The position numbers were made by a program, and so were the translations under genes. Below the pieces are notes generated by a model. That model made no database searches. It saw only the letters and a program-made list of their open reading frames with translations, and had not been told where the DNA came from. Below are positions 35,690-62,641 of a DNA stretch of 64,000 nucleotides, piece by piece. How positions within the stretch are numbered: the stretch's first letter is position 1; each line of letters starts with the position of its first letter. The DNA is taken from positions 10,726,501 through 10,790,500 of the forward strand of contig OX485805.1 of NCBI GenBank assembly GCA_950295325.1. The letters are read 5' to 3'. This stretch comes from Polytrichum commune (Eukaryota; Streptophyta; Polytrichopsida; Polytrichales; Polytrichaceae).

Positions 35690-36500
35690 CCCACTGTGGG
35701 CAATGAGTTTGGGTCGAGCAACCCAATCCTGTTGTCAGGATGCGGCATAGACATAGGGTCATGGACCCACAAGACCTCCAAAATGGGTTCGGGTCGACCG
35801 ACCCAAACCTCGTGACAGGATGGGCCCCGGTCGTCTAACCCAGCCCACACTGTGTGGATGGGTTTGGGTCGAGCGACCCAAACCTCTTGTTAGGATGGGC
35901 CTTGCTTGTCAAACCTAGCCCACACTTTGTGGATGGATTTGGGTCGAGCGACCCAAACATCTTGTTAGGATGGGCCTTGCTTGTCTAACCCAACCCAAAC
36001 TGTCTGGATGGGTTTGGGTCGAGCGACCCAAACCTCTTGTTAGGATGGGTCTTGCTTGTCTAACCCAGCCCACACTGTGTGGATGGGTTTGGGTCGATCG
36101 ACCCAAATCTCTTGTTAGGATAGGCCTTGCTTGTCTAACCCAAGGCACACTGTGTGGATGGGTTTCGGTCAAGCGACCCAAACCTCTTATTAGGATGGGC
36201 CTTGTTTGTCTAACCCAGCCCACACTGTGTGGATGGGTTTCGGTCGAGCGACCCAAACCTCTTGTTAGGATGGGCCTTGCTTGTCTAACCCAACCCACAT
36301 TGTCTAGATGGGTTTAGGTCGACCGACCCAAACCTCGTGATATGATGGGCCCCATTTGTCTAACCCAGCACACACTGCGTGGATGGGTTTGGGTCGACCG
36401 ACCCAAACCTCTTGTTAGGATGGGCCTTGCTTGTCCAACCCAGCCCACACTGTGTGTATGGGTTTGGGTCGTTCGACCCAAATCTTCCGCAATTTACGCC
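35690..36500. repeat. Array of about eleven 74 bp units around the GGGTCG palindrome (gene A intron 1, outer copy)
   Basis: Each unit has TTTGGGTCGNNCGACCCAAA, then CTCTTGTTAGGATGGGCC, TTGCTTGTCTAACCCA and CACACTGTGTGGATGGG. Central dinucleotides vary (AG, AC, AT, TT). Edge copies are degenerate. It sits between the gene A core promoter (36,700) and its coding start (35,491), thus in intron 1 by analogy with the inner copy. Peptides read across it in any frame are artefacts. Confidence 0.92.
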
Positions 36501-36696
36501 TGATAATGCGGCATACTTCCATTTCGCCTAAATAGAAACTACTTGGATGAATTCAGGCCGTGCATGGCTATTCTATTTAGCTACTCATGAACGGAGGTGT
36601 ACACAAACCTTGTACTCCACCTCTAACTGAGAGAGCTTGCAATGATTTCAGAATGGGGAGATGAGGAAAAAGGACCGAATTCCGGGGGGTTTGGGA

Positions 36697-36703
36697 CTTT
36701 ATA
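36697..36703 (-). promoter_or_regulatory. TATA box of gene A, outer copy
   Basis: TATAAAG on the minus strand, embedded in sequence conserved with the inner copy: GGCGGGAAAGGCATCCAA, then AGGTGGAGG or similar, then GGGTAGTATAAAG. Conservation between two otherwise diverged intergenic regions supports promoter function. Confidence 0.65.
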
Positions 36704-36929
36704 CTACCCGCCTCCACCTTGGCCTTCCTCTTTGGATGCCTTTCCCGCCGGAATTTCATTTGACCCTTAATTCAAACCTTCTGACAGACTTTCCCGCTTC
36801 ATGCTCGTAATAGATAATCCATATTTAGCATGGCTCTTCGTCGCCCCAACCATCAAATGACCTTGCTAATTCCGCTATTAAATAACTACACAAAATATGA
36901 GGTGTGTGTTTCATTATATTTAGTGTTGC

Positions 36930-38343: not shown

Positions 38344-38775
38344 TTGGAGGGATCATCAAACATCAAACTTAATGCTTAAATGGCTTCATATGATTTTGAA
38401 CTCCATGGGGTTCCAGTAGATAAATTTGTAATCTTTGTGCATCTCCCATGTACTTCAAATGTCAACTTCTATGTACTGATATAAATGATTAGGGCAATGC
38501 TACTTGGGTGGCTATCCATTGTAGGCTAGAGCCTTGTCTTCTACCAACTTGGGTTATGAAAATTACAATAGAGAGCCCTAAACCCTTGACCATGTTAATG
38601 GTTAGCATATTTAAACACTATATTCGTTAAATTGAGACTTTTTGGGCATTTTGAGATAATCACATAAATAAGAACAAGGATAAATGGAACACATATTGGA
38701 GAAAGTTGTAAGATGCGAACACTTTGAAGCGGGTGTTTAGAACAAGAACCCCATTAATAACTCATATTTGGGATT

Positions 38776-39012
38776 GTTTAGGGTGGGCAATCCAAACCTT
38801 AGGCCAAGTTGAAGGGGAAATCTTAAAACATTTATATTATCGCACAAAAACTTGTATGAATATGGTTTAGGTAGCGCAATCCAAACCATAGATCATATTG
38901 AAGGGGAAATATGTGAACCAATATAATATAACATACAAAATATTCCAAACTCATATTTGTGATGGTTTAGGTAGGGCAATCCAAACCTTAGACCATATTG
39001 AAGGGGAAATCA
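38776..39012 (+). repeat. Subterminal repeats, gene B side, inner copy
   Basis: Three copies, about 95 bp apart, of a block GGTTTAGGTAGGGCAATCC, AAACCTTAGACCATATTG, AAGGGGAAAT, each followed by AT-rich sequence. They lie 160-400 bp inside the left terminus. Subterminal repeats in this position are typical transposase-binding sites in CACTA-type elements. GGTTTAG..ATCCAAACC is itself partly palindromic. Confidence 0.85.
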
Positions 39013-39151
39013 TGTGACACTTATATTATTGCAAAAAAAACATACAAATTATGGCATGTAAAATGCATAGCATGCTAACACCACACATCCATTGGATAGT
39101 GCGACCCAAAATGTTCTTGCCTATGGCTCACAACCCTACGCCTACTATGGC

Positions 39152-39972
39152 CTATCTAGCCTCGGAGACTACCTCTTTTTCTTTTGCTTCATTTTCTTTT
39201 GCTTTTTTTTCTTTTGCCTCTTTTTCTTTTGCCTCTTTTTCTTTTGCTGCGGCTTCTTTTGCTCGCATTGCTTCAACATTCCTGAAAATCTCCGCCCCGC
39301 GACTATAGCCATTCTTGGGGTGACCGCCATCAATAACACATTTTGGATTCCGTCGGCCGCCCGAATTATACGACGAAGAATTCGAATACGATGAAGTGGA
39401 CTGTCTTGCATTTCTGGTCATGGAGTAGAAACGCTCCAACTCGACGGACGCACTAGCCCGCATAGGTCTACGGGTGGGAGCAACCTGCAACGCGTGAATG
39501 CAAGAACACACGTGTTAGTTTAGGGAGGAAGACCCAAACGTGTCACACGTTCATTTTTTAAGTGCCGGATGATTGTAATGCGCAGTTAACCATGTTTTGG
39601 GGGGGGGGGGGGGTTCACCTTGTCACCGGGGGCGTTCCCGTCGGAGTCGGCGAGGAGGGGCAATGCATCCCGCAAAGGAATAGGAAGGGTGCCACTCTTC
39701 GTAGGCCGAGCGTCCATCCGCAGCCGCCGTTGAGGTGTACTACTGCCGCCGGGCCGAGACGGGGACGTCCGGACGCATTTGCGATTTATGCCCTTGAGCG
39801 GCGACAGGGACGGAGATGGCCGGAAGATTTGCTTGGGTGGGGGGCTATCGACGACGCCGGCGTCAATAGGCTCCTTGGAGTAGTCGATGGTGGACGCGGC
39901 ATCGTAGACGGTCTCGTAGAAGAAGCTCCCCAAGTTTGATTCGCTGACGATGTCAATCGAGGGCTCCAAACG
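39152..39972 (-). CDS. Two conserved exons downstream of gene B, inner copy
   Basis: Exon 1 (39,972-39,619) starts after a CCCATCAG acceptor and ends at GACAAG/GTGAAC. Exon 2 (39,484-39,152) starts after CGCGTTGCAG and ends at a stop. Both junctions are phase 0, giving about 228 aa: RLEPSIDIVSE..., a Ser/Pro/Arg-rich middle, then NSGGRRNPKC and a Lys/Glu/Ala-rich coiled-coil-like tail. The same exons are conserved in the outer copy (62,642-63,435). No family is recognised. They follow the gene B stop by about 120 nt. They could be alternative 3' exons of gene B that bypass its last stop, or a separate gene lacking an obvious start. Confidence 0.55.
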
Positions 39973-40091
39973 CTGATGGGAAAATTAAAACAAACAAAAC
40001 CCAAGGGGAGGGGGGCAGGGGGGGAGCATGAGAAAATCGATATACAATTGAGGCATACTATATCACACACAATGGCACACCATGTAGTATC

Positions 40092-43000
40092 TCAAATGAG
40101 TTTATTATATTTCGCGTGAGCGTACAACTCTCTGTACATATAGTCCTTCGGATCCATGTATCTTTCGCCTATCGGATTACAACTAAGGAACCGGGGCACG
40201 GGTAGTCCGCTCCCCACGAGCGTTTGAATGTACTTAAGTAGGTCTAACAAAAAGCGGTCTCGGACCTTCTCGACCGTCCACGTGGGGCAAACTATGAAGT
40301 TCGAGGTCGGGTTCAAAATGTTCTTGGAAGCGCTGTCGTCCACCATCAACGTGTTGTCACGGGTGGGGCGAACGTTGTAGGGACAGCCGACCATGGTCGG
40401 ACGCTGATCCCATACGACTGGCTTCAAGACCTTAAGAAATTGGTTTACGGCGGGGTTGTTGGGCTTCTTCACAACCCTGCCCTCGGGGGTGTACAATGTT
40501 TTACAAGAATCCTGTCCTAGGACCAAGCACGGGGGTTGGAGTCCCTTGAAGATGAACTCCACGACGGCCTGGGTGTTCTCGGACTTCATGGAGCTCCACA
40601 CGATCACCCACCATTTGGATAGGGTGACCTGCAGGAAGCGCCGAAGCCACGGGCGGAGGTACACTAGCTTGCTTTTGATGTACGCGGGGGGACCATCGTA
40701 GTTCCCGTCCTCGGGCTTGCAGAAAGGCACCGTGGGGACCTTGGGACAGTGCACGCACTGGACGAGGACCCCGTTGAGGTCTAGCACCAGGAACCGTGTC
40801 TTGGGCGGCGGAGACGGGGAGGGCAAAATCGGGGGGACCACCGCGCTGTCCTCCACGCTCCTCGGGGAGGACCGGTGGGGAGCCACGACGCTATGCTCCG
40901 ATCCCTGCGGCGACGAGCGAGAGAAGGCGACGAGGACTATGTTATGCTATGTTTAATTCAAGCAGAACGGAAATTTTGTGCAAACACAAGAAGAATTGGA
41001 CCATTGGTGGCAACAAAAACATACAAGGGGAACAACATACATTGGGACACGGATGCTAACATATGGGCGCCAAAAATAGTAATTTTATTGTTACAAATCT
41101 CTATGTACAATTTGAGGGGGGGGGGCGCGGTGAACGAGGGCATTCACACTATCCTAATTGTACATCTACAAAATTGGTTGCGCACCGCCAAGGTTGAGCG
41201 TAGTCGAGTGAGGTGAGACGAAGGGGATCGCGGGGGGAGCACGTTGTTGGGTGCGTCGGGGGGGTGTAGTTCCTTATAGCTAGGGGGGACAAGACCACGC
41301 CAACAAGACAATGACCAAGGAGGTTTGGGTCGGTCGACCCAAACTGGGAAGGCTCAGTGTGTTACCTCGCCCTGGTCATGTCTCGACGATGTGGATGCCT
41401 CCACCGTCCCCGATGCCCCACCTCTCTCGCCACCGCCTTCTCCGCCTACGTCAGGGACCTTGTCCTGCAAAGGTTGAGCATCAGGCCCTTGTCCTAAACC
41501 AATCTCCGCATATGCATCATGCATGGGTTCATCGATTTGGTTAGGATTAGAGGTATCACCAGGCCCTTGGAGGCCTTCAACATCTAACATGGTTGTGTCT
41601 CTTTGAGACACAAGTTCGTCAAGGGAGGACTGAGCTGCTCCGGGGTTTGGGTCAGGCGACCCAAACTGTCCTGCATCGGGGGAGGCGCCTTGGGGCACTA
41701 CAGTCGAGGGTGGGTTTGGGTCGGTCGACCCAAACATCCTGGGATCGTCCGGCTGGTGAGGGGGCGCCATCACTATGGGGGGTCGTAGTGGTGGAGGGCC
41801 CAACGGGGAGGAGGCTCCAGATACGCGCCAGATGTTGGGATCGTCCACTTGTTGGACTGGCGCGTACGGAACATGGGGCGGCCGCATCATGTGCTGGAAG
41901 CTGAATGACCCTTGCGACACTGGGTGCTGAGGGATGCTCTGCGCTAGGAAACCGGGGGGCAAGTGCGGAAACGAGCTGGATGGAGCCACCACCAATCCTT
42001 GCGCCCACATCCCTTGTATGACTTGCGATATCAAGTCGGCGCTGGATGGAGGTTGGGCCATCGCCCTTAGTCTTTCTTGTTCCAAGAGGAGAGCCCTCAG
42101 CTCTGCGACCTCGTTCCGCACGGAGGGTTCTTCCGCGGTAGCCCTCTGCAGGCGGACGCGCTGCTCCTCGTCTCTACGCATCTTCTCGTTGGCTTCCTCC
42201 ACAGTGAGGACTTCGGGTTTCACCCTAACCATGCCTGCGAACGCTGTCGGGGAGGGGGGATCCGATCTGAGCCGTTTGGCGAGCTCAATGTCGTCGTCGT
42301 CCTCGCTGCTAATGGCAATGGTCTCCTCCAATGCGTAATCGCCATAGAGCTTCTTTCCCTTTAACTTCCTCCTCTCCCGGAACGTGGCAGTCGCGTCCCT
42401 GGAGTACATGTCCCTCGCATCGTCCACCGTAAGGACGGGCATCATCTTACTCTGCGGGGTTGCCACACGCATAGCCTTCTTCCTCTGAGGGGCTTCAGAT
42501 TCTTGCGTGAATCCCGTTGCCCCTTCCTCCACATCCCCCTCCTTTTCCTCCTCTCCGTGTTCTTCTTCTTCCTCCTCCTCTTCCACCTCTCCACCTCCTG
42601 TACGGGACGGATTGCCCGGATGCAACCCGACTAGAGGTTCGGGTAATTGGGTTGTTGCCCTCATCGCAATTTCTTCCGGGTTGATCCGCCTCGCCCTATC
42701 AAGAGGGTTCTCACCCCCCTCAACAACCTCGTCCACGTAGCTTCCCGGGATCCAATCGAGGATATCCATCTTCTTTGCCAGCGATTTCTGCGTCCTGTAA
42801 AATTGCAGATCGCTATCCTCTATGTACGAGTAGATGTTCAACCCCAACATCTACACAATCCAAGTTATATAGAAATTAGAATTTGCAAGACAAAAAACAA
42901 GACCAAAAACAATATCTAGTTTGGGTCGACCGACCCAAACCAAGAGAGAGACTAGTTTGGGTCGACCGACCCAAACTGCGCAAGAGCTAAAGAATGTAAC

Positions 43001-46000
43001 TTACCATGGCAGCATAGAGGGGTTTCGAGCCCCCGAACACGTTGAAGATACAGTCCCCTCTCCTAGTCAGCGTCCTCAGCATCCGCATGTAGAATTCCAT
43101 CCGCAGCTCATCTGCAGGATAGTTTGCGTATTTGGCCTCGTCGTATAGGCATTTGCTGGAACCTAACCCATCTGGAACTTGGAAGAGCTTGTCCATCCGG
43201 GATATAGGGTGGTTCGGCACCTTCAACAACTCCGCTTTGTACACGAAGTACAAACACAGGACGTTGACGACCTTGGTCTTCTTGTCCTTCAACGACGTGT
43301 AGGCCCCCTCCGCCGGTGCGGCGATGTAGTGAGACTTGGAGACTGCATACTCCGGCTGCAATTTCCGGACAAGGTCGTACACCTGCTCCGCCCTCCTATC
43401 CTCGACTATCCATAGCCAGACATCAACCTCCCTGAACTTAGGACTCGCATAATCGACGAACTTAGATAGGAAGGGGTCGTAAAACAGTGTGCTCATCGTA
43501 CCCTCAAATGAGCTTCCAGGAATGTTCCTGAAATCTATCATTCCGAATGGGAAACGCCCCCCTGCTTTCGTCCTTATCGCCATTCTGGCGTCTTGACCTG
43601 GCCAGCCCTGAATTTTCAAAGGCTCGAAGGTGACAAGGTTGAAGTAAGCGTCCCCTTCAAACTGGACAATCTTCTTCTCCTTGATGAAGTTCGAGAACGC
43701 ACGCGCTGTGTGATCCGGAAGCGCCCGGTTCTTCCCACCCTTCACCATCTTGGCCCGCAAGAAGTCATCCCCCGCTTCCCTTATTAGAGCCGCCATGGAG
43801 GCACTGGTGAACTTATATTCAGCTTTGAATGCTCTCCAGTTAGCCTCATGAACCTCGCCGTCCACGACAATATTCCTCTCCGGCACCAATTTATGCAGCT
43901 CCTGCACTATAGTTGTCTTCTTTTTCCTATTCTCAGTCCATTCCTTCATGGTGTAGCATGAAGGGACGAAGGATTTGGGCTTTAAGAAGACAATCTTCGG
44001 GTGCACCCAGCACCTTTTCGCCGTGGGCGTGAAATGCAGGATGTGCGCCGCCGCCTTCTCCATCTCCGTCTCGGAAAGGCCTTGAAGAGTTCTAAAGAAC
44101 TCTCTCACGAGAGGCTTCATTTGTTTGAAGCGCGTGGTTTGGTTGAAGAAAATTCATGTGTCCGGGTCGATGAGCTCACCCGTCTCATGCTTCTCAAATA
44201 CACTCTTCCACTTCATCCAAACGGAGTCGGATGCTGTTATTAAATAAATCTCCCCTCTAAGCTCGTTGTATTTCTTCTGTTTGTGACTAGCATTATCAAT
44301 GGAGGAGAATTTATTTATCATTTGGTATTTGAAGTCCTGCATGTGATCAAAACAATCATTTGAATGCATGTTAGATATGAACATGTGATTTCCAAAACAT
44401 ATCATGACCAGTGTCTGCACCAAGAGTTTGGGTCGATCGACCCAAACTAAAAAAACATGACTGCAACAAGAGTTTGGGTCGATCGACCCAAACTAAAAAA
44501 ACATGACTGCAACAAGAGTTTGGGTCGATCGACCCAAACTAAAAAAACATGACTGCAACAAGACTTTGGGTCGAGCGATCCAAACTAAAAAACATGACTG
44601 CAACAAGACTTTGGATCGAGCGACCCAAAGTACACAAATAAAGCTGCAAAAGGAGTTTGGGTCGATCGACCCAAACAATACTCACCTCCCACTTGGGATT
44701 CTTGTCCTTTGCATTCTCCCTCTCCTTGGGAGGCCTACCATAGAACTCCCACACCTCCCGCGAGGCCATGATATTCCTTATCCAGGAAGCTTGGTAGGCC
44801 CTTTTCTTATTCCCCATGTTAAAGTAACGGGAGATGTCGCTCAGTCGGGTCTCATCGTCAGACCACACCACCAGTGCCTTCCACACCTTCAACTTCTCCT
44901 TCTGATGGTTGGGATCGTCCCACTCAGTCATCAGTTGGATTTTCTTGGAAGCCTCAACGCTGTGTTGGCCGTCTATGAGCCAAAAATCGCCTTTCTGAAT
45001 TGTCGCCCACATTTCAGGGGTAGGCATTTTCTTCAGTCCCTGGGGCATCACTACAATGGTTTGCCTGTCGTCTTTGAATTGTTCGCTAACGATCTGCGCG
45101 ATTATCCAATCGACGTAGGCGTCTTCTTTTGCCCGGACACATTTTTCTGGTGGCGCGAGATGACATTGACTGATGTTCACGTCGAATTTGAAATCCCTGC
45201 CCATGAAAAAGCAATGGGAGCACTTGGTCGTGAAATTGTTCACGATTTTTTGGATCTCCCCTGCATCCACTTCCTGCCCTGGCTTCGGCATGCGCAATTC
45301 TGGAGAGACTGGCTCGTCAGTCATCACAGATGACTCTCTCGCCCTCTTGGAGGAAGTTGTTTGGCGGCTGCCAGAAGGCGTAGGCGTCTGGCTATCCGCC
45401 GGTGTCTCCGATGGAGTGGTTCGTCTTGAGCTAGCCGGGACTGGTTGCGGCATCCTCACTGATTGAGGCCTTGACGACCCTGCACCTTCCTCAGTGGGTA
45501 CCTTCCGCCTGACGGCTTGCTGAGACTTCGTTTTGCTCTGCAGGGCTTTGTTGAGCACGCTGATTGCATGCTTTAGTTTCGTAAACCGGCTCGAGACCTT
45601 TGTGTTCGATGTACTGGCATCGATGAAAATTGTCTCGGGTTTGATTACATCAGGTTCGACACATGACTCCCTTGCATATGTAGCGTCAAAGGGTTCGACG
45701 AACTGGTGCAGAAACATATGAGCATTCTGCACAGCGTTGTTCTCAAGGATGACGTCTGCGTAGTCTCCAAAAGACTGGACCGACGCCACCTCCCATCCCG
45801 TAAGAGTCGCCCAGGTATGTTTTTCCACGGTCCCTACTTTGACAACGAATATCAGTTTGTAAATGGAGGTTTTTACTACTTGAATTGACCAGGCGAGGAC
45901 AAGCCCGTCCTTAGGGACATATGAGTCATCCTGAGGTGTTTCGTGCTCCTGCCATAACACGTCTGGCGCAAGCATGAACCACCTTTCTCCTGGTCTTTTC

Positions 46001-46011
46001 TTTGGGGCCAT
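40092..46011 (-). CDS. Gene B, inner copy: large ParB-like / FCP1-like HAD protein, five exons, one nonsense codon
   Basis: Coding exons are 46,011-44,686, 44,336-43,005, 42,850-41,366 and 40,904-40,092, preceded by a non-coding exon. All junctions are GT-AG and phase 0, giving 1,652 codons. The ATG follows directly after a TTTGCAG acceptor in both copies. Exon 2 has a Ser/Thr/Pro-rich linker, then FWLIDGQHSVEASKKIQ, resembling the DGxHR-type motif of ParB/sulfiredoxin folds, then SDISRYFNMGNKKRAYQASW, plausibly helix-turn-helix. The last exon has FLVLDLNGVLV, VIVWSSMKSEN, KKPNNP and MVDDSASKN, the motif order of FCP1/NIF-like HAD phosphatases, but with Asn replacing the second Asp of DxD. 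A TGA at 44,156-44,154 replaces a Gly codon of the other copy. Introns 2, 3 and 4 each hold GGGTCG palindromes near the donor. The function in transposition is unknown. Confidence 0.72.
41633..41735 (-). repeat. GGGTCG palindromes inside gene B coding sequence, inner copy
   Basis: Two palindromes, one slightly degenerate with GGGTCAGGCGACCC near 41,645-41,670 and one with centre GT near 41,707-41,730. They lie in frame in exon 4 and translate as QFGSPDPN and MFGSTDPN. The outer copy has two at the matching place (60,820-60,910). Because the repeat is palindromic, it encodes FGSxDPN in either orientation in this frame. Confidence 0.85.
42912..42980. repeat. Two GGGTCG palindromes in gene B intron 3, inner copy
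   Basis: Both have centre AC and lie about 28 and 65 nt downstream of the 5' splice site at 43,004. Intron 4 (41,365-40,905) likewise has one copy at 41,324-41,347, about 20 nt from its donor. Confidence 0.9.
44424..44678. repeat. Six GGGTCG palindromes in gene B intron 2, inner copy
   Basis: Copies recur every 45-50 bp, separated by AAAAAAACATGACTGCAACA. Four have perfect arms with centre AT. Two have one arm mutation (AGCGATCC, GGATCGAGCG). The first copy lies within about 10 nt of the 5' splice site at 44,685. Confidence 0.93.
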
Positions 46012-46035
46012 CTGCAAAGAAAGAAGCAAGGATGT

Positions 46036-46432
46036 TAGTTTTGGTCGTTCGACCCAAACTTCTTCACAATAGATTAGATGTCACGTGATGGAAGGGAAAT
46101 GTAATGCATCAACGCATTTATTTTTGGATTGTGTCTTGTTATTTTAGAACTTCATTTATATGTTTATATGGTATTTCGTTATCTTGGGTGGATTTGCGTT
46201 TTATATTGTCATCAAGGATTTCTTGAAAAGTTTATACTGTAGAGGTTGCGTTTGGGTCGACCGACCCAAACAGCAGGATGTGCTTTGGGTCGATCGACCC
46301 AAACTATAGGCTGTGTTTAGGGTTTACGGACCCAAAGCACATCGTGCTGTTTGGGTCGATCGACCCAAAGCACATCCTGCTGTTTGGGTCGATCGACCCA
46401 AACTATAGGCTGTGTTTGGGTCGTCTCCCCAA
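46036..46432. repeat. GGGTCG palindrome cluster in the gene B leader, inner copy
   Basis: About seven copies lie upstream of the coding start: one near 46,040-46,060, then 46,250-46,272, 46,281-46,304, 46,346-46,371 and 46,381-46,404, plus degenerate copies near 46,318 and 46,413. They are linked by ACTATAGGCTGTG or AGCACATCCTGCTG spacers. They are within the first intron if the ATG-proximal acceptor is used. Confidence 0.88.
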
Positions 46433-46469
46433 ACTGTTCTATTTTAATATAGCTTTTTAAACTTGGCAT

Positions 46470-46505
46470 GTAGCATATACAATGCTTATGCATTGTGTAT
46501 GCTAC
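46470..46505. repeat. Conserved 36 bp inverted repeat upstream of gene B, inner copy
   Basis: GTAGCATATACAATGC and GCATTGTGTATGCTAC form a hairpin with a four-base centre. The same hairpin is present at 56,142-56,170 upstream of the outer gene B (GCATATACAATGC / GCATTGTATATG), although surrounding sequence is diverged. Confidence 0.8.
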
Positions 46506-46899
46506 AACACTGTCAATTAAGAAACACATATTGAAACCCCTTGAAAAACAATACCTTTGCTAAGGGTTTCTGTTGTAGTCGTTGCAGATGGTTGCTTTTG
46601 AACAAGTGCTCTTCTTCGACTAAGACAGAATCAGTGAATTCCTATTCGCAGACACGCTAAAACTCACAAACAACTACCAAAGATTTCAAACCTTTCTTGA
46701 ATCTCTCAATAAACCCACAATCTCTCACACAACTCCTGAGTCTCTTCAGAATCACTCAAACAACAATTGTAACTCTCAAACAACAACTGAGTCTGTTAAA
46801 ACAACAACTGAATCTCTCAAAACAATAACTAAATCTCTGAAAGCACTTTTGTATCACTTTTGTATCTCTTATAGAACTTCCTAATCTGACAACCACTCA

Positions 46900-47070
46900 C
46901 AAGCACTCACATGCACTCATAAGCACTCACATGCACTCACAAGCCCTCACATGCACTCACAAGCACTCACATGCACTTACAAGCACTCACATGTACTCAC
47001 AAGCACTCACATGCACTCACAAGCACTCACATGCACTCACAAGCACTCACATGCACTCACAAGCACTTCG
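46900..47070. repeat. 20 bp minisatellite in the gene B leader
   Basis: About eight copies of CACTCACATGCACTCACAAG, nearly perfect, lie upstream of gene B in the inner element only. Confidence 0.92.
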
Positions 47071-51050: not shown

Positions 51051-51245
51051 CCCAAAATATTTTGTGGAACATTTTGTGGACTGGCGCACAGTATTGGGAG
51101 CTCACATTGCATTTGTGTTGCAAATGTCTTGATCCTCAGTGTCCCCATTCATCGTGATGTTTTGCATTTTCCAATATTTGATTTTTTTGGACCCTTACGT
51201 TGTGTCCATGTTTGTTGAGGTTTCATGTGCATATGTGTAGGCGTA

Positions 51246-54200
51246 ATGGAGGGAGTTGGTGGAAGAGGGGATTCCTTCTCTGAAGACATGGGCAGCACCC
51301 AATCTCTGTCTGGGGATGAGCTAGACATTGTCGGGGAGGATAGTTTTGATGACAGTGCAGATGAAGGTCATTTGGGGAGTCCTTCGCCATCTGACCCTTT
51401 TTGCCCCATTGTGGAATGTGCGGGGCTTTCACGAGCTTCATGGGTGAATTTGGATGTGGTACTTGTTAATGACAGTGGAGTTGCTGTGGCGGAGGGTATT
51501 TGTCGTAACACACATCCACAAGATTGCATTGATGAACACCCCCTTGGCACCGAGGACGTTGGAGTTGTTATATTAGAATCACTCGTACATTCGGAAGTCA
51601 ATCCAACTCATAGGTTCTCGTTGCGAAGGTGGCCGTTGAGGAATGTGACAATTGAGGGGGTTAGCTTGCGCGACCATGAGCGACGACACGTCCAAATCCA
51701 ACAGGAGCTCCAAGCAAACATTCGGCCACGCAAAGGCCTTCGGAAGTACGAAACATTGACACGTCCTACTCCGTCTACAAATAAGTGTAAACGTCAAAGG
51801 TTGCTCTGTGAGGAGTCTATTAGAGAAGTTGCTACGAAGGATTGTTGTGTACATCGTTGTTGCCAATTGTTCCCAAGAGATAAATTGAAGGCCATCCGTG
51901 AAGAAATGTGGCTTGGAGATTTCCGTCTAAGATCCACCAAAAAACTTGATGTCCATAGGGCGATACATGTGAACGGAGCGGGTCGCAAGGTCATCACCCA
52001 TGAGAGCATAGACGTGTGTTGTACGGCATGGTACACCATTCATGGTGTGTCGAAAGCGGAATTTTATAGACAAGCCGCGTATGCCAATGAAGGCCGCCGT
52101 GCCCGTCACCATGGGAACATGGGCTTAAAGAAACCAAGAGAAGCAACGAGACAAGCAACAGCCACTTTGGCAACCATCATTGTCCCCCTTGCCGATGCAA
52201 TGCCGCACAAAACACGCACACTCGCAACCGGTGAAAAGGTTGTGGAGAAGGTTCTTCCTACAGGCACGAAATGGAAAGACATATTGTTGGACGTAAACGC
52301 AGTTGGCGAGAAGGCCGGGTTGGACCCAATTTCGTTGTCGAAACTGAGTGCTATCAAAAAATCTCACTTTAGCGAATACATCACAAAAAGACGAGGCGAC
52401 AAATTTGCCCGTTGTTCCAAATGCGAGAAGTTGAAACGCCTTCGAGATGCACACACGATGGGGACAGAGTCCTATGCCGCACATCAAATGAACTATTTCA
52501 AGCATGTGAACATGCAAGAGGCACACCGTAATGATTACTACACAAATAGAGCTTTGTCCATCTCCAGGCCTTTGGAAGTCCTTACAATCATCCATGACAA
52601 GATGGACCATGCCAAAACAGCCTCACCATGTTTTGCAAATCGAATCAAAGCCACGGACGGCCTTTTTAAGCTTCCTGTTTCGGTTACAGGTGATTTTGAT
52701 AACAATTGCATTGCATTACCTAAACACAAATTTGTGCGTTTAGGTTTGTACTTGGGGCCATACATGTACACCATGTGAATTTTTTGGTGTTATAGTTGAA
52801 TATTAAACCATTGGGTTGCCTTTGCAGGAATGATTGCACATGGGCATGGTGATGTCAAATATGCTCATTATGCTCTTGATTTGTATCCGGCGGATTCAAA
52901 CCACACGATAGGGTCATTTGCAAAGCTTTTACGTGATTTGGAGAAACCGCTGTCCTATTCATCAAGATTGCTATTTGAAAACTCGGGATCAACACCTCTA
53001 TATGAAGCGGTCTTGGATGGAAGAGATGTATGCGTGCACTCATTGCCGGAGCCACCAAGTGAAGATGTGATTGCCAAGAAGTTGCCCCCAACTCTGCGTG
53101 TCCAATTGGACAATTGTGCGAAGGACAATAAAAGTAGATATGTTTTTGCATATTGGTCGTTGTTGGTTGCGAAAGGCATTTTCAAGGAGGTTTTTGTGTC
53201 CTTTCTATTGGTAGGCCATATGCACGATGATATTGATGCGTCCTTTGGGCGGTGGAGCATGAAGTTGCGCGAGGAGGATTTTCCAACAATCCCATTGTTG
53301 ATGAAGTCGTACATGAATTTGGAGAACATTCCCGTCATCCCCCATATGATCGAGGAGGTTCCAGACTTCAAGGCATTTATAGAACCGTATATTCGAAGCG
53401 GAGCTCACCGATTGATCGGGCATACGAAGGCACAACAATTTCGGTTCTACGTGCGTGACGATGGTGTCCCCGCCATGCAATACAAGTTGTTGTGCACATC
53501 ACAAGACTGGAGCCCGCCGGAGGGTCTCCTTGTATGGCGTGTTGATGGGGAAGGAAGGACGATGTTGCCTGACGGAGAGCCTAAGCCTTGCAAACCAATA
53601 CCCATGAAGAATTTGGAGGACATTTGTAAAGGCATATCAGGCTTCATACAATATTGGGAGAGTTTGAGGGTAGCGGATGTTGGTGGATCGTGTTGGCTTC
53701 GTTACGGAAGTTGGATACAATATTGGACACGTGTTCGTGGCGCTTTGGCAAACCTTCATCAAGATACACCCCTTACTTTAAGGCATGGGTTTTGGCCACA
53801 AACACGTGTCAATGTACAAGCTTCGGAGGCTAGTCTTTTGGGAAATGGAGAGGTTCGAGAGGAGTTTGATGTGGACGACCATTACGTGGGGCCTGCTAGT
53901 AGTCGTCCGCCACCATCTTTCCGCATTGCAGTGGATTGTCATGAAGGTTATATGTTCATTTTGCGTCCTGGAGATGAGACATATGCAAAGCCAGTGTGGG
54001 TGGCAAGAGCTTTGTCCAAACCAAATTTTGTAACTTCCAGCCCTCATTTTCGACAAATACAAGTAGAGTACTACCGATCGACAGCACGGAATGAAGATGT
54101 TGTTCGACATTATACAGGCTGGGATACAAACCCTAACTTTCGGTGGAAGGTGGATTCTGAGCATGGTCCATCTTGGGTAGATACAGATTCCATATTCATA

Positions 54201-54314
54201 GCATGGAAACCACGGAAAAATCATAGTGGATCAGTGTCCATCCCTCAAAAGTACATAACTTTTGCAAAAGACAACCTTGCTCGGATCGCAGAAGAAGCAA
54301 CCCACGTTGAATGA
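51246..54314 (+). CDS. Gene A, inner copy: putative DDE-type transposase, 976 aa, intact
   Basis: Two coding exons, 51,246-52,689 and 52,828-54,314, are joined by a 138 nt GT-AG intron (ACAG/GTGATT ... TTTGCAG/GAATG). They give 977 codons without a stop. The ATG follows a GTGTAG acceptor. Order of features: acidic N-terminus; a Cys-rich segment KDCCVHRCCQLFPRDKL; VCCTAWYTIHGVSKAEFYRQ with HGNMGLKKPREATRQA (helix-turn-helix-like); CSKCEKLKRL; HDKMDHAKTASP; QLDNCAKDNKSRYVFAYW; GHMHDDIDASFGRW; and a C-terminal region rich in Trp. The last motifs match the group of transposon-encoded proteins I associate with the DUF7869 domain. The Asp residues in DKMD, LDN and DDID could form a DDE-like triad, but that is inference. 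GHTHDDID is GHMHDDID here. Transcription is away from gene B, towards the right terminus. Confidence 0.82.
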
Positions 54315-54850
54315 GAAGTTGGTAGGATTGTGTTAGCATGATTATAGTGTAAACTGTAATTCGACGAATATATATTACTCATATGTGTGCTCCTCAAACT
54401 TGGGGCAAAGTTTGGGTAGAACTTGCGAATGCTATATTGTTTGGGGTTGGATGAATATCCATTTACTATATTTCAATACAGTTGTGAAGTTCATTTTTTT
54501 TATTAAGTTTGGGACTAAATTTTCCATTGAAGAAAAATGCATTTATTGCATGCACTTTGTATGTTGCAATGTCTATATTTTATTGACCATGCTAATAATA
54601 GAAATTATTTTATATGTTTCTTGGGTGAAACTAGTTTGGAGTGCTCTATCCAAAGTGTTTTTGTAGATGAAGTTGGTGTTGAGTGCTCTACCACATGTGC
54701 TTATGTCCACACATAATAGATTTGGGATATTAGAACATATAATATATTTGAGATCGTTCTCAATATAGTTTCGGAACACGGAATGTTGTTTGATCCATAT
54801 ATTAATTTGAGACTAGAGAAAGTCTCAATTTAACGAATATAGTGTTTTTA

Positions 54851-56280
54851 TATTGTTGCACCGTGTAATTGCATTTGAGGATTGGAATATAATAATGACA
54901 TACTCCTCTTAGACTTTGTATCACTCTCATCTCACTCTATATGACTACATTATTGAAATTGTAAAACAAATAATGGATTCATTCTACGATGTTAGCAATT
55001 CCAACGCGGGACCATTGAATTGAACACCATTAAAATCAAAGTTCGCGATGGTGTTAATTTTGTGGAATACCTTAGGCTATGTAGCTTTTCGAATTTTTTC
55101 TAATGGCCGCTATAGATAGCGGCTTAGAATGCCGGGACCGAGCGGCCAAGAGAGGCGCTGGCCCTCCTATGTCGTGCTGCTAGGGGCGGCAGGTGTGCAC
55201 CCCACAAGCCTCGGGTAGCCACCATCACCAAGAGGGTGTTGACACATGGCAGGGTGGCTGCCTGCGAGGCTTGTGAACCGTTGATGGGCTCGGCCGCTCC
55301 AATGGCCCAGATTGGGTCCCAAGGCTAGCCCTATCTCTCTCTCTCTCTCTCCCTCCGCGATTTCTTTTTCTCTCCCTCCGCGCCAAGCTCCCTCCTTTCT
55401 CTCCCTCCTTTCTCTCCTTCTTGTCGTGAAGCGGCGGCACCTCCCCCGAAGCGACAGCTCCGCCTAGCGCCGCATTTTCTTATTCTCTTACTCCTTTCCA
55501 CCTCTGACATTCTTCTAACCTTCTTCTCGGATTCTCTCTTCTTTTTGTAAGGGTTTAGGAGCAATTTCAGTGTGTGTTTATTGTAGAGGAGTGTGTTTTT
55601 GTTTAGGGGGACTTGCATTGAATGATTTCAGAGTCTGTTTGTTGTTTATGAGTGTGTTTTTGTTTATTGAGTGATTTCAGAGTGTGGTTGACGTTTAGGA
55701 GAGTGTTTTTGTTTAAACAGACGCGCATTGAGTGATTTCAGAGTGTGGTTGTTGTTTAGTGTTTAGGGTTTTTGTTTAAAGATACGCGCATTAAGTGAAT
55801 TCAGATTGTGTTTGTTGTCTAGGAGTGAATTTTTGTTTGAAAGTATGCGCATGGAGTGTTTTCGGAGTACGCTTGTTGTTTAGGAGAGTGTTTTTGTTCT
55901 AGAGTGCGCGCTTTGAGTGATTTCAGAGTGTTTTTGATGTTTTGAAACTGGCTTTTGTTCTTAAAGTGCAAGACAGAGTGATTACAACTTATTGCCTCAG
56001 TGATACAGAAACTTTGGCCTGAGTGTTAGTGAGATTTGAGTGTTCAGGTGTGATTACAGACTGATTACAGCTTATTGCAGCTTGAATCAAGGTATTATCT
56101 TTACTCAACATAATATGCTTCAATTTCTTTAGGGTCTTGATGCATATACAATGCATAAGCATTGTATATGTTGTGTCCAAAAATTACATATGAATCTTGA
56201 AACACAATAGTTTTGGGCGACGCCCCAAATCTCTATATAAAACCCCAACCCCATAAAAACTTAACAATGTAAATGTTGCA
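54851..56280 (+). other. Outer element middle and gene B leader, outer copy
   Basis: Contains a CT-rich stretch (55,330-55,420) and a GCGGCGGCAC region comparable to the inner gene B leader. At 55,560-55,950 there is a degenerate tandem array of 60-65 bp units built around GAGTGATTTCAGAGTGTG and TTGTTTAGGAG and TGTTTTTGTTT. No coding sequence is supported. Together with 36,930-38,613 it is the uninterrupted middle of the outer element before the inner insertion. Confidence 0.5.
56142..56170. repeat. Conserved inverted repeat upstream of gene B, outer copy
   Basis: GCATATACAATGC and GCATTGTATATG flank ATAA. It is the counterpart of 46,470-46,505. Retention of both arms in two diverged copies suggests function in RNA or DNA. 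Confidence 0.75.
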
Positions 56281-56282: not shown

Positions 56283-56700
56283 TGGTTTGGGTCGCTCGAC
56301 CCAAACCCTGCTGATGGTTTGGGTCGCTCGACCCAAAACCTACAACGAACCAAGCCAATATCTCAAACTAAACAACCTTCTAAACATTAATAACCATTTT
56401 TTTGATGCCCATAATGTGGAATCTCCTGAGACTAGTTGGCATGTCCACATATGTCCAGCGCGGATTAACCAAAACATCAAAAATTGCTGAGAGAACGGAT
56501 AATTTGAACACTACTTGGTGCTAATCAATATACTCAGCGTCATAAGACTCGAAATCCACCAACAATTCTTGTATAATTGAGCTACTCCAGGCTTGGGTTT
56601 GGGTCGCTCGACCGAAACCTGTCATTCATGGTGACCAAAAGAATATCGTTCTCCCATTCCACCAAATAGAATGCTTTGGGTCAATCGACCAAAACTAACA
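56283..56700. repeat. GGGTCG palindromes in the gene B leader, outer copy
   Basis: Two perfect copies with centre CT (56,285-56,306 and 56,318-56,338). There is one with a mutated arm (GGGTCGCTCGACCG near 56,600) and one with GGGTCAATCGACC near 56,678, just before the gene B acceptor. Confidence 0.88.
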
Positions 56701-58054
56701 GTGTCGTTTCTAGAATTACAGATGGCCCCCAAGAAGAGACCTGGAGAAAGGTGGTTTATGCTCGCGCCAGACGAACTATGGCAGGAGTACGAAACTCCCC
56801 AGGACGACACATACGTGCCCAAGGATGGGCTCGTTCTTGCGTGGTCCGTCCAGGTTGTGAAGTCCTCCCACTTCAAGCTGCTATTCGTGGTGAAGGTGGG
56901 GACCCACGAGCAGCACACATGGGCAACACTGACGGGATGGGAGGTTGCGTCCGTCCAAGCTCTCGGGGACTACGTTGACGTTATTCTGGAGAACTCCGCC
57001 GTGCAGAACGTTCATATGTTCATGCACCAATTCTCCGAGGCTTTCGACCCCTTCTACGCCAAGGAGACGTGCATTGAACCGGAGACAATAAAACAGGAGG
57101 CCATCTTCATAGATGGCAGTGTAACAAACACTAAGATTGCTAGCAGGTTCACAAAATTGAAACATGCTATCACGGTTCACAACAAGGCGCTGCAAAACAA
57201 ACCCAAAACGCAGCAACCGTTGAGGCGGAAGGCCACGACAGAAGAAGGCGCGGGGTCCTCAAGACCCCAAACTGTGAGAAAGCCGCGGCCGGTGCCTGCA
57301 GACTCTCGAAGGACGAGTACTACCTCGACGCCGGCTGACAGCTCTACGCCAACGCCGTCCGCAAGCTGGCAGACGACACCGTCCAAGAGGGGAAGAGAGT
57401 CATCAATGATGACTGACGAGCCAGCTTCACCAGAGCTGCGGATGCCGAAGCCTGGCCAAGAGGTGGATGCAGGGGAAATACAAAAGATCAACGACAACTT
57501 CGAAACAAAATGCATCCACTGCTTCTTCATGGGCAGGGGCTTCAAGTTCGACGTTAACATCGCCCAGTGCCACCTTGCGCCACCAGAAAAGTGTGTCCGA
57601 GCCAAGGATGACGCCTACGTTGACTGGATGGTCGCTCAGATATTGGGCGGTCAGTTCAAAGATGACAGGCAGACGATTGTGGTCATGCCCCAAGGCCTAA
57701 AAAAAATGCCGACGCCTGATATGTGGCCGGCAATTTCAAAGGGAGATTTCTGGCTGATTGACGGCCAACACAGTGTGGAGGCCTCCAAAAAAATTTAGCT
57801 GATGACTGAATGGGACGACCCCCACAAGCAGAAGGAGAAGCTCAAGGTGTGGAAGGCATTGGTGGTCTGATGTGACAACGAGACCGTTCTTACTGACATC
57901 TCCCGCTTCTTCAATATGGGAAACAAGAAGAGGGCATATCAGGCATCATGGATTAGGAATATCATGGCCTCGAGGGAGGTGTGGGAGTTTTATGGAAGGC
58001 CTCCCAAGGAAAGGGAGAATGCGAAAGACAAGAACCCGAAATGGGAGGTGAGCA

Positions 58055-58195
58055 AGTTTGGGTCGTTCGACCCAAACTCTTGTATTCTTTCATTGTCTTT
58101 GTCAGGCTTATAGTTTGGGTCGATCGACCCAAACTCTTGTATTTTTTTTATTGTCTTCGCCAGGTTTTTAGTTTGGGTCGACCGACCCAAACTGC
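58055..58195. repeat. Three GGGTCG palindromes in gene B intron 2, outer copy
   Basis: Centres TT, AT and AC, spaced about 58 bp with a repeated spacer (CTTGTATT, TTGTCTT, GCCAGG). The first begins about 8 nt after the 5' splice site. Number and spacing differ from the six copies in the inner intron. Confidence 0.92.
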
Positions 58196-60817
58196 TGATG
58201 CATTTCTTGTTTCATGACGTGTTGTCTAACGTGTGTTGTTTACTTCATTTGCAGGATTTCAAATACCAGATGATTAATAAATTCTCCTCGATTGACAACG
58301 CAAGCCACAAGCAGAAGAAGTACAACGAGCTACGAGGAGAAATTTATTTAATCACTGCTTCTGACTCTGTGTGGGGAAAATGGAAGTGTGTTTTCGAGAA
58401 ACACGAGACGGGGGACCTCACGGACCCCGACACCGGCATGCTCTTCAACCAGATTGCGCGCTTCAAGAAAATGGAGCCTCTGGTGAGGGAGTTCTTCAGA
58501 GCTCTTCAAGGGCTTTCGGAGACAAAGATGAGAAAGGCGGCTTCCCACATCCTTCACGTACAGCCCACGTACGACGAAGAGATACTGGGTCCACCCGAAG
58601 ATCGTCTTCACCAAGCCTAAAAGCTTCGTCCCTTCATGCTACACAATGAAGGAATGGACGGAGAACAGGAAGAAGAAGACGACCATCGTCCAGGAGCTGC
58701 ACAAGCTTGTGCCGGAGAAGAAGCTCCTTGTGGATGGAGAGGTCGACGAGGCGCACTGGAGGGCCTTCAAATCCGAGTACAAGTTTACCAGTGCGTCGAT
58801 GGCGGCACTCATGAGGGAGGCGGGAGACGAATTCCTCAGGTCCAAGCTCGTGAAAGGGGGGAAGAACCGGGCGCTTCCCGAACACTCCGCGCGTGCCTTC
58901 TCCAACTTCATAAAGGAGAAGGAGATCGTTAGTTTCGAAGGGGACGCACATTTCAACTTGGTCACCCTCGACCCGCTCAAGATCCAAGGCTGGCCAGGGT
59001 CCGATTCCAGGAAGGCGATCAGGACAAAAGCCGGGGATCGCTTCCCCTTCGCATTGATAGACTTCAGAAACATCCCTGGAGCTTCATTCGAGGGGACAAT
59101 GAGCACCTCGTTTTACGAGCCATTCTTCTCCAAGTTCGTCGACTAGTCCCAAATTCAAGGAGGTGGATATCTGGTTGTGGATTGTCGAGGACAGGAGGGC
59201 GGAGCAAGTCTACGAGATTGTGCGGAAATTGCAGCCAGAGTACGCCGTCTCGAAATCCCACTACGTTGCTGCACCGGCGGAGGGGGCGTACAACACTTTG
59301 AAAGACAAGAAGACGAAGATCGTCAATGTGTTGTGCTTGTACTTCGTGTACAAAGCTGAGCTGCTGAAGGTGCCAAACCATCCTATAGCCCGGATGGAAA
59401 AGCTTTTCCAGGTCCCAGACGTGTTGGGTACCAGCAGGAGTTTGTACAATGAGGCGAAATACGCCAACTACCCCGCGGATGAGCTGCGGATGGATTTCTA
59501 CCTGCGGATGATGAGGACCCTCACGAAGAGGGGGGACTGCATCTTCAACGTCTTCGGGGGCTCGAAACCGGTCTTCGCTGCAATGGTAAGCAACTACCCT
59601 GAAGTTTTAATGTGTTTGGTTTGGGTCGAGCGACCCAAACTAGTTTTGTATTGGTTGTCATTTTTCTCTATTCTTCATTGGTGATACTAACGCTATTGAT
59701 ATGGATTGTGCAGATGTCTGGGTTGAACATCTACTCCTATGTGGAGGATGCCGATGTTCAATTCTACAGGACCCAAAAGTCTCTGGCTAAGAGGATGGAC
59801 ATCCTCGACTGGATACCGGGATCCTACATTGGCGAGATCCTCCAGGGGGGTGAGAATCCGCTTGATATGGCGAGGCGAATCAACCCGGAAGAATTTACCA
59901 TGCGGCCCTCCGTTGAATTGCCAGAACCACTCATCGGGTTGCATCCGGGCAATCCGTCAATGGGAGCAGGTGGCGAGGTTGCGGAGGAGGGGGAGGAGGA
60001 GGAGGAAGCAGAAAAAATGGAGGGGGAGGTGGAGGAAGGGGCAACATGATTCACTCAAGAATCCGAAGCCCCTCAGCGGAAGAAGGCCATGCGGGCTGCC
60101 ACGCCGCAGAGCAGGCTGGTGCATGTGCTCACGGTGGACGACGCGAAGGAGATGTACTCGAGGGACGCGATGGCCACCTTCAGGGATCGGCGAAGGCTGA
60201 AGGGGAAAAAATTGTACAGCGACTATGCGGTGGAGGAGACGATCGCCATAAGCTCCGAGGATGAGGACGACATGGAGCTCGCGAAGAGGCTAAGGTCGGA
60301 TCATGCCTCCCCCACAGCGTTCGCCGGGAATGTGAGGGTGAAACCGGAAGTCCTCATCGTGGAGGAGGCCAACGCGAAAATGCTCTGGGACGAGGAGCAG
60401 CGCGTCCGATTGGAGAAAGCTGCCGCGGATGAGCCCTCGGTCCGCAACGAAGTCGCGGAGTTGAGGGCTCTCCTTTTGGAGTAGGAGCGGCAAAGGGCGA
60501 TGGCCCAACCTCCCTCCCAAGCGGAACTGATCACGCAAGTGATTCAGGGCATGCTGGCGCAGGGATTGGTGATGGCTCCCCCGAGTGCATTCCCTCATTT
60601 GCCCGCCGGCTTCCCTCCCCAAGATATCGGCCCGCGCGTCAGCAGTCATTCAGCTTCGGGCATTTGCTACAGCCGCACGCCCGCCCTTACGCGCCCGTCC
60701 AGCAGGTGGACGACCCCAACCTTTGGCGCGTCCCCGGAGCGTCCATCTCGTTGGCACCCCCGCCGCTCCGGCCTCCCATCCTCTTGCCCCCACACCACCA
60801 GCGGGACGACCCCCACA

Positions 60818-60912
60818 TGTTTGGGTCGTCCGACCCAAACAGTGCCGACGTTGGAGCGTCCCAGAGCGACCCTCGCCAAGCAGTAGGGTTTGGGTCGGCC
60901 GACCCAAACCCC
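60818..60912 (+). repeat. GGGTCG palindromes inside gene B coding sequence, outer copy
   Basis: Two perfect copies, centres TC and GC, read as MFGSSDPN and GFGSADPN in the gene B frame. Same location as the coding copies in the inner gene, but with different centres. Confidence 0.88.
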
Positions 60913-62641
60913 GTCCCCGATCAGACCCCCGTTGACGAGCCCATGCTAGATGTTGAAGGCCCTCAAGGGCCTGATGATACCTCTATTCCTAACCCAGTCG
61001 ATGAACCAATGCATGATGCGCATGCGGAGGTTGGGTTGGGACAAAGGCCTGACAGTCAACCTTTGCAGGAGTAGGTTGCGGCTGACGTCGTCGTCGGAGG
61101 CGGCGGTGACAGAGGTGGGGCAACGCACGCGATGCCGGCATCAACGGCGTCAAGGCACGACCAAGGCGAGGTAATGCACTGACCCCACTCAGTTTGGGTC
61201 GGTCGACCCAAACTCCCCGGGTCTTTGTCTTCTTGCCTTGGTCGTGTCCCCTAGCTAGGACGAACTTACGCGCCCGTCACCCTCCCCCCCGGCACTCGCG
61301 CCCTTCGTCACCCCCGAGCGACCATCCGTTCGTCCACCTACCCCGGCTTGCGACGAAGTCTTCATCACGGCGGCGCGTCTCCTCAAATTTTGTTAGATGT
61401 AGATCTAGACTAGTTTGAACGCATCGTTCAACGCGGCTCCCCCCCATCAAGATGTACATAGAGCATTATATATAATATAATCACCATTTTTTACTCCTAT
61501 ATACTTGTATCTTGTGGTTGAATGTATATTGTATGCTTTTGCCTCTCTTGTGTCCCTTGTTGCACCCCCTCCAAGATGAATCAAATGGTTTTGTGTTTGC
61601 ACCGAGAACACTCGTTTCCTTAATGCTTCGTTTGGACATAGCATGACATAAGTCGCCCCCGTTTTCTCTCGCTCGTATCCGCAGGGCTCGGAGCATAGCG
61701 TAGCGGCTCCCCGACGCTCTTCTCCAAGGAGCGGAGAGGGCAGCACGGCGCCCCCCCCCCGGTTTTACCCGCCCCGCCCCCGCTGCCGAAGAAACGATTC
61801 CTGGTGTTAGACATGAACGGTGTCCTCGTGCACTGCGTTCATTGCCCTAGGGCCCCCACAGTGCCCTTTTGCAAGCCCGAGGACGCTAATTACGACGGGC
61901 CGCCCACGTTCATAAAGAGCAAGCTAGTTCACCTCCGCCCGTGGCTTCGGACCTTCCTGCAGATCGCCCAACAACGATGGTGGGTGGTCGTGTGGAGCTC
62001 CATGAAGGCCGAGAACACCAATGCCGTCGTGGAGTTCATCTTCAAGGGCATCGAGCCCCCCTGCATGGTCCTAGCACAGGAAGCATGTAGAATATTGTAC
62101 ACATCGGACGGCAAAGTCGTCAAAAAACCAAACAACGCCGCTTCCCCCCAATATCTCAAGGTCTTGAAGCCCATTTTTTGGGACCAGCGACCGTCCTTGA
62201 TAGGCGTCTCCTACGATGTCCGTCCCACCCGCGAGAACACGCTCATGGTGGACGACAGCGCCGCCAAGAACATGTTGAACCCGACGGCCAACTTCATAGT
62301 TTGCCTACGTGGACGGTCGAGAAGGTCCGGGACCGATTTTTGTTAGACCTTAGTAAATACCTCCAGGTGCTCTGGGGTAGCGGACTACCCGTAAACAATT
62401 TTGTTAGGAATAATCCCATAGGCGAGAGATACTTGGATCCACGAGACCATTTGTACAGAGAGTTGTTCTCACACGCGAAATTTAACAAGCTCATTTGAGG
62501 CACTACGTGTGTTTGTATGTGTGTGTGTGTGTGCCCGCCCACTTTGTGTAATACATGCTTCATATGTATCTTGATTTTCACGCTCTATCTCCCCCCTTTC
62601 CCTTTCCCTTGGGTTTTGTTTTGTTTCAATTTTGGCGCCAG

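Follow-up and report, generated by a model that had tools for sequence, protein, structure and literature searches.

The described systems closest to the one considered here are transposons with repeated sequence motifs of their own and ParB-parS partition systems. VANDALs, which are Mutator-like elements, and their VANC proteins are the detailed case of transposons escaping silencing without waking all others. In En/Spm elements, which are of the CACTA type, the DNA-binding protein TNPA reads repeated motifs at subterminal sites and is thought to act in transposition and demethylation, and its binding serves to build the transpososome or to regulate its own gene; the transposase family of CACTA-type elements is Transposase_21. 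A third comparison is offered by ParB systems, whose parS site is a palindrome. VANC motifs form tandem repeats, both in introns and in regions upstream, and they evolve along with the protein (PMC5735166; PMC10398659), and ParB-methyltransferase fusions are described in phages and archaea (PMC12704722; PMC5512222). Here we analyze a 64,000-nucleotide stretch of the moss Polytrichum commune (contig OX485805.1, positions 10,726,501 to 10,790,500; hereafter, the window), in which a spaced palindrome recurs throughout two diverged copies of one gene set, E1 and E2, lying in inverse orientation and each containing a gene A and a gene B. We put at about even the chance that this palindrome is a DNA site recognized by a dimer and used by the element to mark and regulate itself through protein B, in the manner of VANC/VANDAL anti-silencing but with a different protein architecture.

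The palindrome, TTTGGGTCGNNCGACCCAAA (also written TTTNGGNCGNNCGNCCNAAA), is present in 39 exact copies in the window and in none of 100 dinucleotide shuffles. With up to three mismatches allowed, there are 55 copies against 0.06 expected, and these counts rule out a chance origin. When two weak outliers in the element's end region (39,091 and 63,470) are set aside, 53 sites remain, spanning 35,708–61,212; the original prediction had given about fifty copies over this span, inside the elements only, and within the window each of these points is borne out, with no site at three or fewer mismatches in positions 1–35,700. Perfect sites account for 24 of the 31 in E1 and 15 of the 22 in E2. The conserved unit is 22 bp long (GTTTGGGTCGNNCGACCCAAAC), its flanking G being kept in 48 of the 53 sites and its flanking C in 47. 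On the plus strand, the centre dinucleotides of the exact copies are GT (12), AT (9), AC (7), AG (5), TT (2), CT (2), TC (1) and GC (1), exactly the eight listed beforehand. From the outside inwards, changes affect 2, 0, 2, 8, 1, 2, 0, 1 and 3 of 106 half-sites, the loosest arm position thus being the fourth base from each end, with 0–3 changes at the others.

Many sites stand in arrays with tandemly repeated spacers (periods of about 75, 64, 56, 46, 58 and 33 bp). The claim that the palindromes are embedded in unrelated spacers is therefore correct between arrays and incorrect within an array, where the spacer is itself a tandem repeat. Within arrays we ran the comparison of arms with spacers that had been set beforehand. 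Across the 27 units of five arrays, variation affects 9 of 100 arm columns compared with 88 of 196 spacer columns, the latter figure being inflated in part by a G run of variable length and by two end units that diverge; the pairwise divergence of the centre ranges from 0 to 0.67 depending on the array. Divergence is thus slower overall in the arms than in the spacers, as the proposal of conserved arms around a free centre implied. Because of this difference, and because the arms of other lineages are altered on both sides (see below), the palindrome is regarded as real and constrained. CpG is kept at 102 of 106 places in the sites, and between the two element copies the figures are 65% for gene A and 60% for gene B; this comparison is not like for like and is not counted as proof, since the sites were picked by similarity.

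Gene models made from sequence alone assign each of the 53 sites to a leader, an intron or one particular exon within genes A and B, which agrees with the placement in introns, leaders and coding sequence proposed earlier. The counts for E1 and E2, respectively, are 15 and 11 in the gene A leader, 5 and 4 in the gene B leader, 6 and 3 in intron 1, 2 and 1 in intron 2, 2 and 2 in coding exon 3, and 1 and 1 in intron 3. No site at three or fewer mismatches is found in the gene A coding sequence, in gene B exons 1 and 2 or in the stretch between the leader sites of A and B, and the nearest terminus is at least 2.7 kb from any of the 53. Both elements have the same layout: a B-end, genes B and A transcribed divergently outward, and an A-end. 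The elements, the exons of gene B and the sites are as follows.

38,614–54,846: element E1, 16.2 kb, B-end left and A-end right, gene B on the minus and gene A on the plus strand; 31 of the 53 sites
about 31,480–63,975: element E2, split by E1, gene A on the minus and gene B on the plus strand, both broken; 22 sites
44,686–46,011, minus strand: gene B exon 1 of E1, 442 amino acids; beta-rich domain at residues 11–162 and predicted ParB-CTPase-like fold at 270–404
43,005–44,336, minus strand: exon 2 of gene B in E1, with a single premature stop; in a relative's model, a helical part followed by an N6-adenine-methyltransferase-like fold
41,366–42,850, minus strand: gene B exon 3 of E1; second half of low confidence in the relative's model
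40,092–40,946, minus strand: exon 4 or a separate gene of E1, NIF/HAD phosphatase-like domain (PF03031, E 2.3e-13)
56,722–58,047, 58,255–59,585 and 59,714–61,170, plus strand: gene B exons 1–3 of E2, with several stops and frameshifts
50,065–51,044, plus strand: 15 sites in the gene A leader of E1, between a TATA-like box and the ATG; 12 exact
35,708–36,482, minus strand: 11 sites in the gene A leader of E2, a 75-bp array; 6 exact
46,039–46,402, minus strand: 5 sites in the gene B leader of E1, the nearest ending 27 nt before the ATG
56,286–56,694, plus strand: 4 sites in the gene B leader of E2; 2 exact
44,427–44,675, minus strand: intron 1 of gene B in E1, holding 6 sites that start 10 nt past the donor
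58,057–58,191, plus strand: intron 1 of gene B in E2, holding 3 sites that start 9 nt past the donor
42,920–42,975, minus strand: intron 2 of gene B in E1, holding 2 sites
59,620–59,639, plus strand: intron 2 of gene B in E2, holding 1 site
41,646–41,734, minus strand: 2 sites in coding exon 3 of E1, 69 nt apart, read as FGSxDPN in the open frame
60,820–60,908, plus strand: exon 3 of gene B in E2, with a coding pair of sites at the same distance of 69 nt, read as FGSxDPN in a shifted frame
41,324–41,343, minus strand: intron 3 of gene B in E1, holding 1 site
61,193–61,212, plus strand: intron 3 of gene B in E2, holding 1 site

Protein searches yielded 48 relatives of gene B exon 1 and 50 of exons 2–3, the latter scored among 8000 candidates sharing most words; most come from metagenome contigs. 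Alignments were built from 29 of the 48 plus the window (A1), 34 of the 50 plus the window (A2) and 44 of the 50 (A3). Many of the relatives' open reading frames (ORFs) run past splice donors, so that the start of the intron is translated, and the three frames of the palindrome read FGSxDPN, LGRxTQT and VWVxRPK. Among segments of at least eight residues cut out by patterns, with only symmetric arms of the form TTTaGGbCG considered, a peptide fitting the palindrome is found in 53 of 72, compared with 1.4e-4 in shuffled segments (intron 1, 22/27; intron 2, 18/28; exon 3, 11/11; leader, 1/4; end of intron 1, 1/2). Nine of the 19 misses are just 8–11 residues long, and P0135, which carries VWVDRPK, was dropped by the segment pattern. 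The palindrome-bearing rows, among which near-copies are not independent, are 66–88% identical to the window in exons 1–2 and 44–82% in exon 3. P0116 reaches 93% identity to the window's exon 1; the distant relatives P0203, P0204 and P0206 (38–40%, with P0203 at 40% to the window's exon 2), which make up three of the 19 misses, show no palindrome. The same introns are occupied in the relatives, with spacers that look unrelated; in some, the intron 1 site lies within a few residues of the donor. Their exon 3 contains FGSxDPN one to three times, 23 residues apart if repeated. A search of a prokaryote genome collection for the palindrome itself returned one locus, and the viral contigs searched gave no match.

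The relatives also reveal other arm types. Both arms are visible in 49 of 84 peptide matches (symmetric in 44, asymmetric in 5) and the left arm only in the other 35 (frame 2). The window's type, named after the bases at positions 4 and 7, is GT. In P0192, FGPVGPN together with FGPTGPN fixes the arms as TTTGGGCCG..CGGCCCAAA. P0188 has SFGRPTET, corresponding to TTTCGGTCG..CGACCGAAA with position 7 not visible in that frame, as well as the asymmetric LGRATET. P0194 (SFGRTPET) and P0196, P0136, P0138 and P0140 (VSGGRPK or VSGDRPK) together give TTTCGGGCG..CGCCCGAAA, position 7 being not visible in P0194 and the right arm being silent in the VSG peptides. The pair 4/17 is altered on both sides at four sites (P0140 leader, P0153, P0188 and P0194) and on one side at four (P0132, P0143, P0188 and P0207); for the pair 7/14, P0192 has two sites altered on both sides, and the P0140 leader has one altered on a single side. 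P0140 and P0196 have contigs of equal length (5065), a hint that one contig bears a single arm type in two introns; since P0116 and P0203 share a length as well, this hint was set aside.

Judged from these sequences, arm type appears largely to follow the tree of protein B. On the exon-2 tree (21 rows), the five arm labels need four changes, which is the minimum, and none of 200 shuffles is as low; on the exon-1 tree (24 rows), the bootstrap of which is not settled, they need five changes, a value matched by one of 200 shuffles. The rows in both trees are those with a readable palindrome plus one outgroup and the window, labels were assigned by hand, and the mixed-arm rows P0132, P0143 and P0189 were each given one label.

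The locus resembles VANDAL/VANC in having a transposon-specific motif in many copies, which within the window form tandem arrays both upstream of genes and in introns, and family-specific motifs that would evolve with an element-encoded protein (PMC5735166; PMC10398659). The VANC21 motif, YAGTATTAY, has one orientation and is mainly non-coding, whereas here the motif is a spaced palindrome and two sites per element are coding. In addition, the element ends are CACTA-like and the candidate protein is ParB/methyltransferase-like.

In E1, gene B contains one premature stop across the three exons read, and its ATG is preceded by an acceptor-like TTTGCAG. Protein B is predicted to combine a ParB-CTPase-like fold with a degenerate N6-methyltransferase-like fold; in the predicted structures, the former has the ParB-CTPase topology and the latter that of beta-class N6-adenine or MT-A70 methyltransferases. 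The arginine of the P-motif (GxxR) is missing, GQHS or GQYS occurring in 38 of the 48 relatives and the other 10 lacking the motif by pattern. Instead of the catalytic DPPY/W, DFRxIP is found at the position judged equivalent in 35 of the 50, the 15 without it by pattern including rows that hold exon 3 only. From its motifs, the methyltransferase-like domain is probably inactive. Family searches gave weak below-cut-off matches only for exon 1 in Pfam (GHBP), a weak ParB PHROG match for the exon 1 relatives, and nothing convincing for exons 2 and 3 in Pfam or NCBIfam. Rfam over 31–64 kb reports nothing at the gathering threshold. PDB matches of exon 1 to an ephrin receptor (E 0.18–0.29) and of exon 2 to histone H3.3 (E 0.79) were dismissed as chance-like. 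Four stretches in viral contigs fit a pattern for exon 1 relatives, none of them confirmed, and tblastn against phage records returned seven, all with E values of 3 or worse.

The presence of predicted ParB-CTPase-like and N6-methyltransferase-like folds in one gene, alongside a palindromic DNA site, recalls ParB-parS and the ParB-methyltransferase fusions. Unlike in ParB systems, the P-motif arginine is missing, the methyltransferase motifs are degenerate, the setting is a eukaryotic transposon with introns, and the palindrome has a sequence unlike parS. The eight element stretches scanned in Pfam show no ParA domain.

The NIF/HAD-like domain downstream of gene B in E1 also adjoins gene B of E2 (about 61,699–62,498); it may belong to gene B as a fourth exon or form a gene of its own. 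DLNG or DMNG stands where the acid motif of NIF/HAD phosphatases is expected, and to judge from this the region is perhaps inactive.

Gene A, its promoter-like box and the element ends occupy the following positions.

51,246–54,314, plus strand: gene A of E1, an open 976-amino-acid frame with one modelled intron at 52,690–52,827
49,789–49,795, plus strand: TATA-like box TATAAAG upstream of gene A in E1; the E2 counterpart is on the minus strand near 36,697–36,704
38,614–38,641, plus strand: B-type terminus of E1, AACACTATATTCGTTAAATTGAGACTTT
54,819–54,846, minus strand: A-type terminus of E1
63,948–63,975, minus strand: B-type terminus of E2

The protein encoded by gene A is presumed to be the transposase. 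Pfam gave it DUF7869 alone (PF25273, E 1.6e-39), with no DNA-binding family, and a profile of 17 of its 115 relatives (alignment A4) compared by sequence with the PDB found no solved relative. The named relatives are from the mosses Physcomitrium patens and Ceratodon purpureus. E1 and E2 share the stretch containing TATAAAG in conserved form, their alignment scoring 227 where the best of 20 shuffles scored 76, and the gene A array begins about 270 bp past this box. Gene A of E2 is broken; it carries a 0.41-kb insertion (33,426–33,835), a 94% copy of which lies 7 kb off at 26,063–26,469.

Four copies of the 28-bp terminus AACACTATATTCGTTAAATTGAGACTTT are present, none with more than one mismatch, and the same holds for the CACTA-type terminal sequence CACTATATTCGTTAAATTGA, found once on the plus and three times on the minus strand. 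E1 has CACTATATTCGTTAAATTGA at both ends in inverse orientation, that is, CACTA terminal inverted repeats, and the left end of E2 (from 31,481) is decayed, with 17 of 26 terminal bases matching. To judge by how ends and genes are ordered, E1 looks nested in E2, the two being 16-kb CACTA-ended transposons; no empty site was seen for this nesting. E1 is flanked on both sides by TTTA, outside AACACTA...TAGTGTT, and these flanks may, by their sequence, be a target-site duplication; the 3 bp directly outside CACTA...TAGTG do not match. A 61-bp copy (97%) of the A-end (54,786–54,846) at 49,248–49,308, inside E1 and in the same orientation, is unaccounted for by nesting.

Each element carries three subterminal repeats, GGTTTGGATTGCCCTACCTAAACC, near its B-end (38,777–38,987 and 63,593–63,816). 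They agree with the palindrome sites at 17–19 of 24 positions, and the sequences at 39,091 and 63,470 look intermediate between the two; from this resemblance, the repeats may be a second class of site for the same or a related protein. Upstream of gene B, both elements have a second palindromic stretch, ACAATGCATAAGCATTGTAT (about 46,475–46,500 and 56,145–56,170), more conserved than its surroundings. Outside the elements, ORFs at 9,342–16,974 and 1,900–3,522 match endonuclease/phosphatase (below cut-off), PCIF1_WW and RNase H (retrotransposon-like) domains, and one has a hAT dimerisation domain.

CACTA ends and repeated motifs are what this locus shares with En/Spm; the differences are that the 53 sites are internal rather than subterminal and that gene A contains DUF7869 and no other Pfam family. 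If the gene A protein bound the palindromes, as TNPA does its motifs, for transpososome assembly or regulation of its own gene, the largest array (15 sites) would lie fittingly in the gene A leader, and one protein could read both the palindromes and the GGTTTGGATTGCCCTACCTAAACC repeats. We consider this unlikely, given that the 53 sites keep well clear of the termini, that about half of them lie in gene B and that gene A has no Pfam DNA-binding family; their mid-element position rules them out as subterminal transposase sites. A second alternative was already named in the original prediction, which left the choice between a dimeric DNA site and an RNA hairpin. Stem-loops of 9 bp in the pre-mRNA could control splicing, export or stability of element transcripts, and the 22-mer does fold at -13.2 kcal/mol; the first intron 1 site, moreover, lies 9–10 nt past the donor in both elements and near it in several relatives. 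What is conserved, however, is the stem, with the loop free, and no compensated stem change occurs in the 53 sites. The 19 broken pairs, read on the sense strand, comprise 7 G-U, 4 A-C and 8 other, without a clear G-U excess; the missing compensation and the lack of such a bias speak against an RNA stem, though not conclusively. An arm sequence common to an element's sites and the exon 3 sites, with no splice site nearby, likewise fit a hairpin poorly. The evidence thus favours DNA, and the hairpin is the less supported half of the earlier claim; we hold it to be improbable.

Neutral spread by slippage and gene conversion would multiply palindrome units without function. It would explain the many copies in tandem arrays and the centre dinucleotide that neighbouring units often share, but not arms that are less variable than the spacers of the same arrays, the occupation of the same introns in relatives despite unrelated spacers, or arm changes on both sides in several relatives, and it appears very unlikely. 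Equally slight is the chance that the reader of the site is supplied by the host, as a transcription factor or a silencing factor: a host factor predicts otherwise than an arm type that differs by element lineage and largely tracks the B tree.

We return to recognition of the palindrome by an element-encoded protein. The site is probably read as DNA rather than RNA, by a dimeric protein, because the centre is free and the arms conserved, because variants change both arms, because each window element uses one arm sequence and because the site recurs in several introns. Protein B, rather than A or a host protein, is the somewhat favoured binder on account of its predicted ParB-like architecture and the arm types carried on the B trees. 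By analogy with VANC, the purpose may be activation or anti-silencing, a suggestion to which we give rather less than even chances. Several observations pull the other way. The 46-bp array shows a weak contrast between arms and spacers (4/20 against 8/24), the CT label alone is unclustered in both trees, and the transcribed-looking location of all 53 sites suits an RNA element. The main alternative binder is the gene A protein, a case strengthened by the resemblance of the B-end subterminal repeats to the palindrome sites.

The proposed mechanism is that a DNA transposon with CACTA ends recognizes itself. A protein encoded by the element would, as a dimer, bind both arms, leaving the two centre bases unread; the candidate is protein B, with its ParB-like domain, helical part and inactive-looking N6-adenine-methyltransferase-like domain. 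The many leader and intron sites would load the protein onto the element's own transcription units, which could keep genes A and B expressed against host silencing, or tune their expression, as VANC does for VANDAL. Lineages would shift their arms, several visibly on both sides, along with protein B and so address their own copies. A bolder version, which we regard as doubtful, is that a eukaryotic transposon family took over a phage-like ParB-methyltransferase fusion for self-addressing, such that a dead methyltransferase joined to a ParB-like domain would read the palindrome set in the element's introns, leaders and coding sequence, spread over the element, hold its chromatin open and switch address through both arms as the protein diverges.

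Transposon self-recognition by sequence is of a known kind, and the combination of parts seen here was not found described together in the literature searched. There, six versions of the 20-mer did not occur, DUF7869 was unnamed, and giant transposons, moss and DNA methyltransferase did not appear together; the 9-base half-sites do occur, in unrelated subjects among the matches listed. With several arm types largely tracking the protein tree, each arm type would predict a binding specificity, and coevolution of protein and address would become directly testable. If the proposed role of protein B is true, a ParB-methyltransferase-like protein would be in new use in a eukaryote; if the bolder version also holds, sequence-specific anti-silencing of the VANC kind would have arisen a second time in this transposon family, and a eukaryotic nucleus would contain an array resembling parS.

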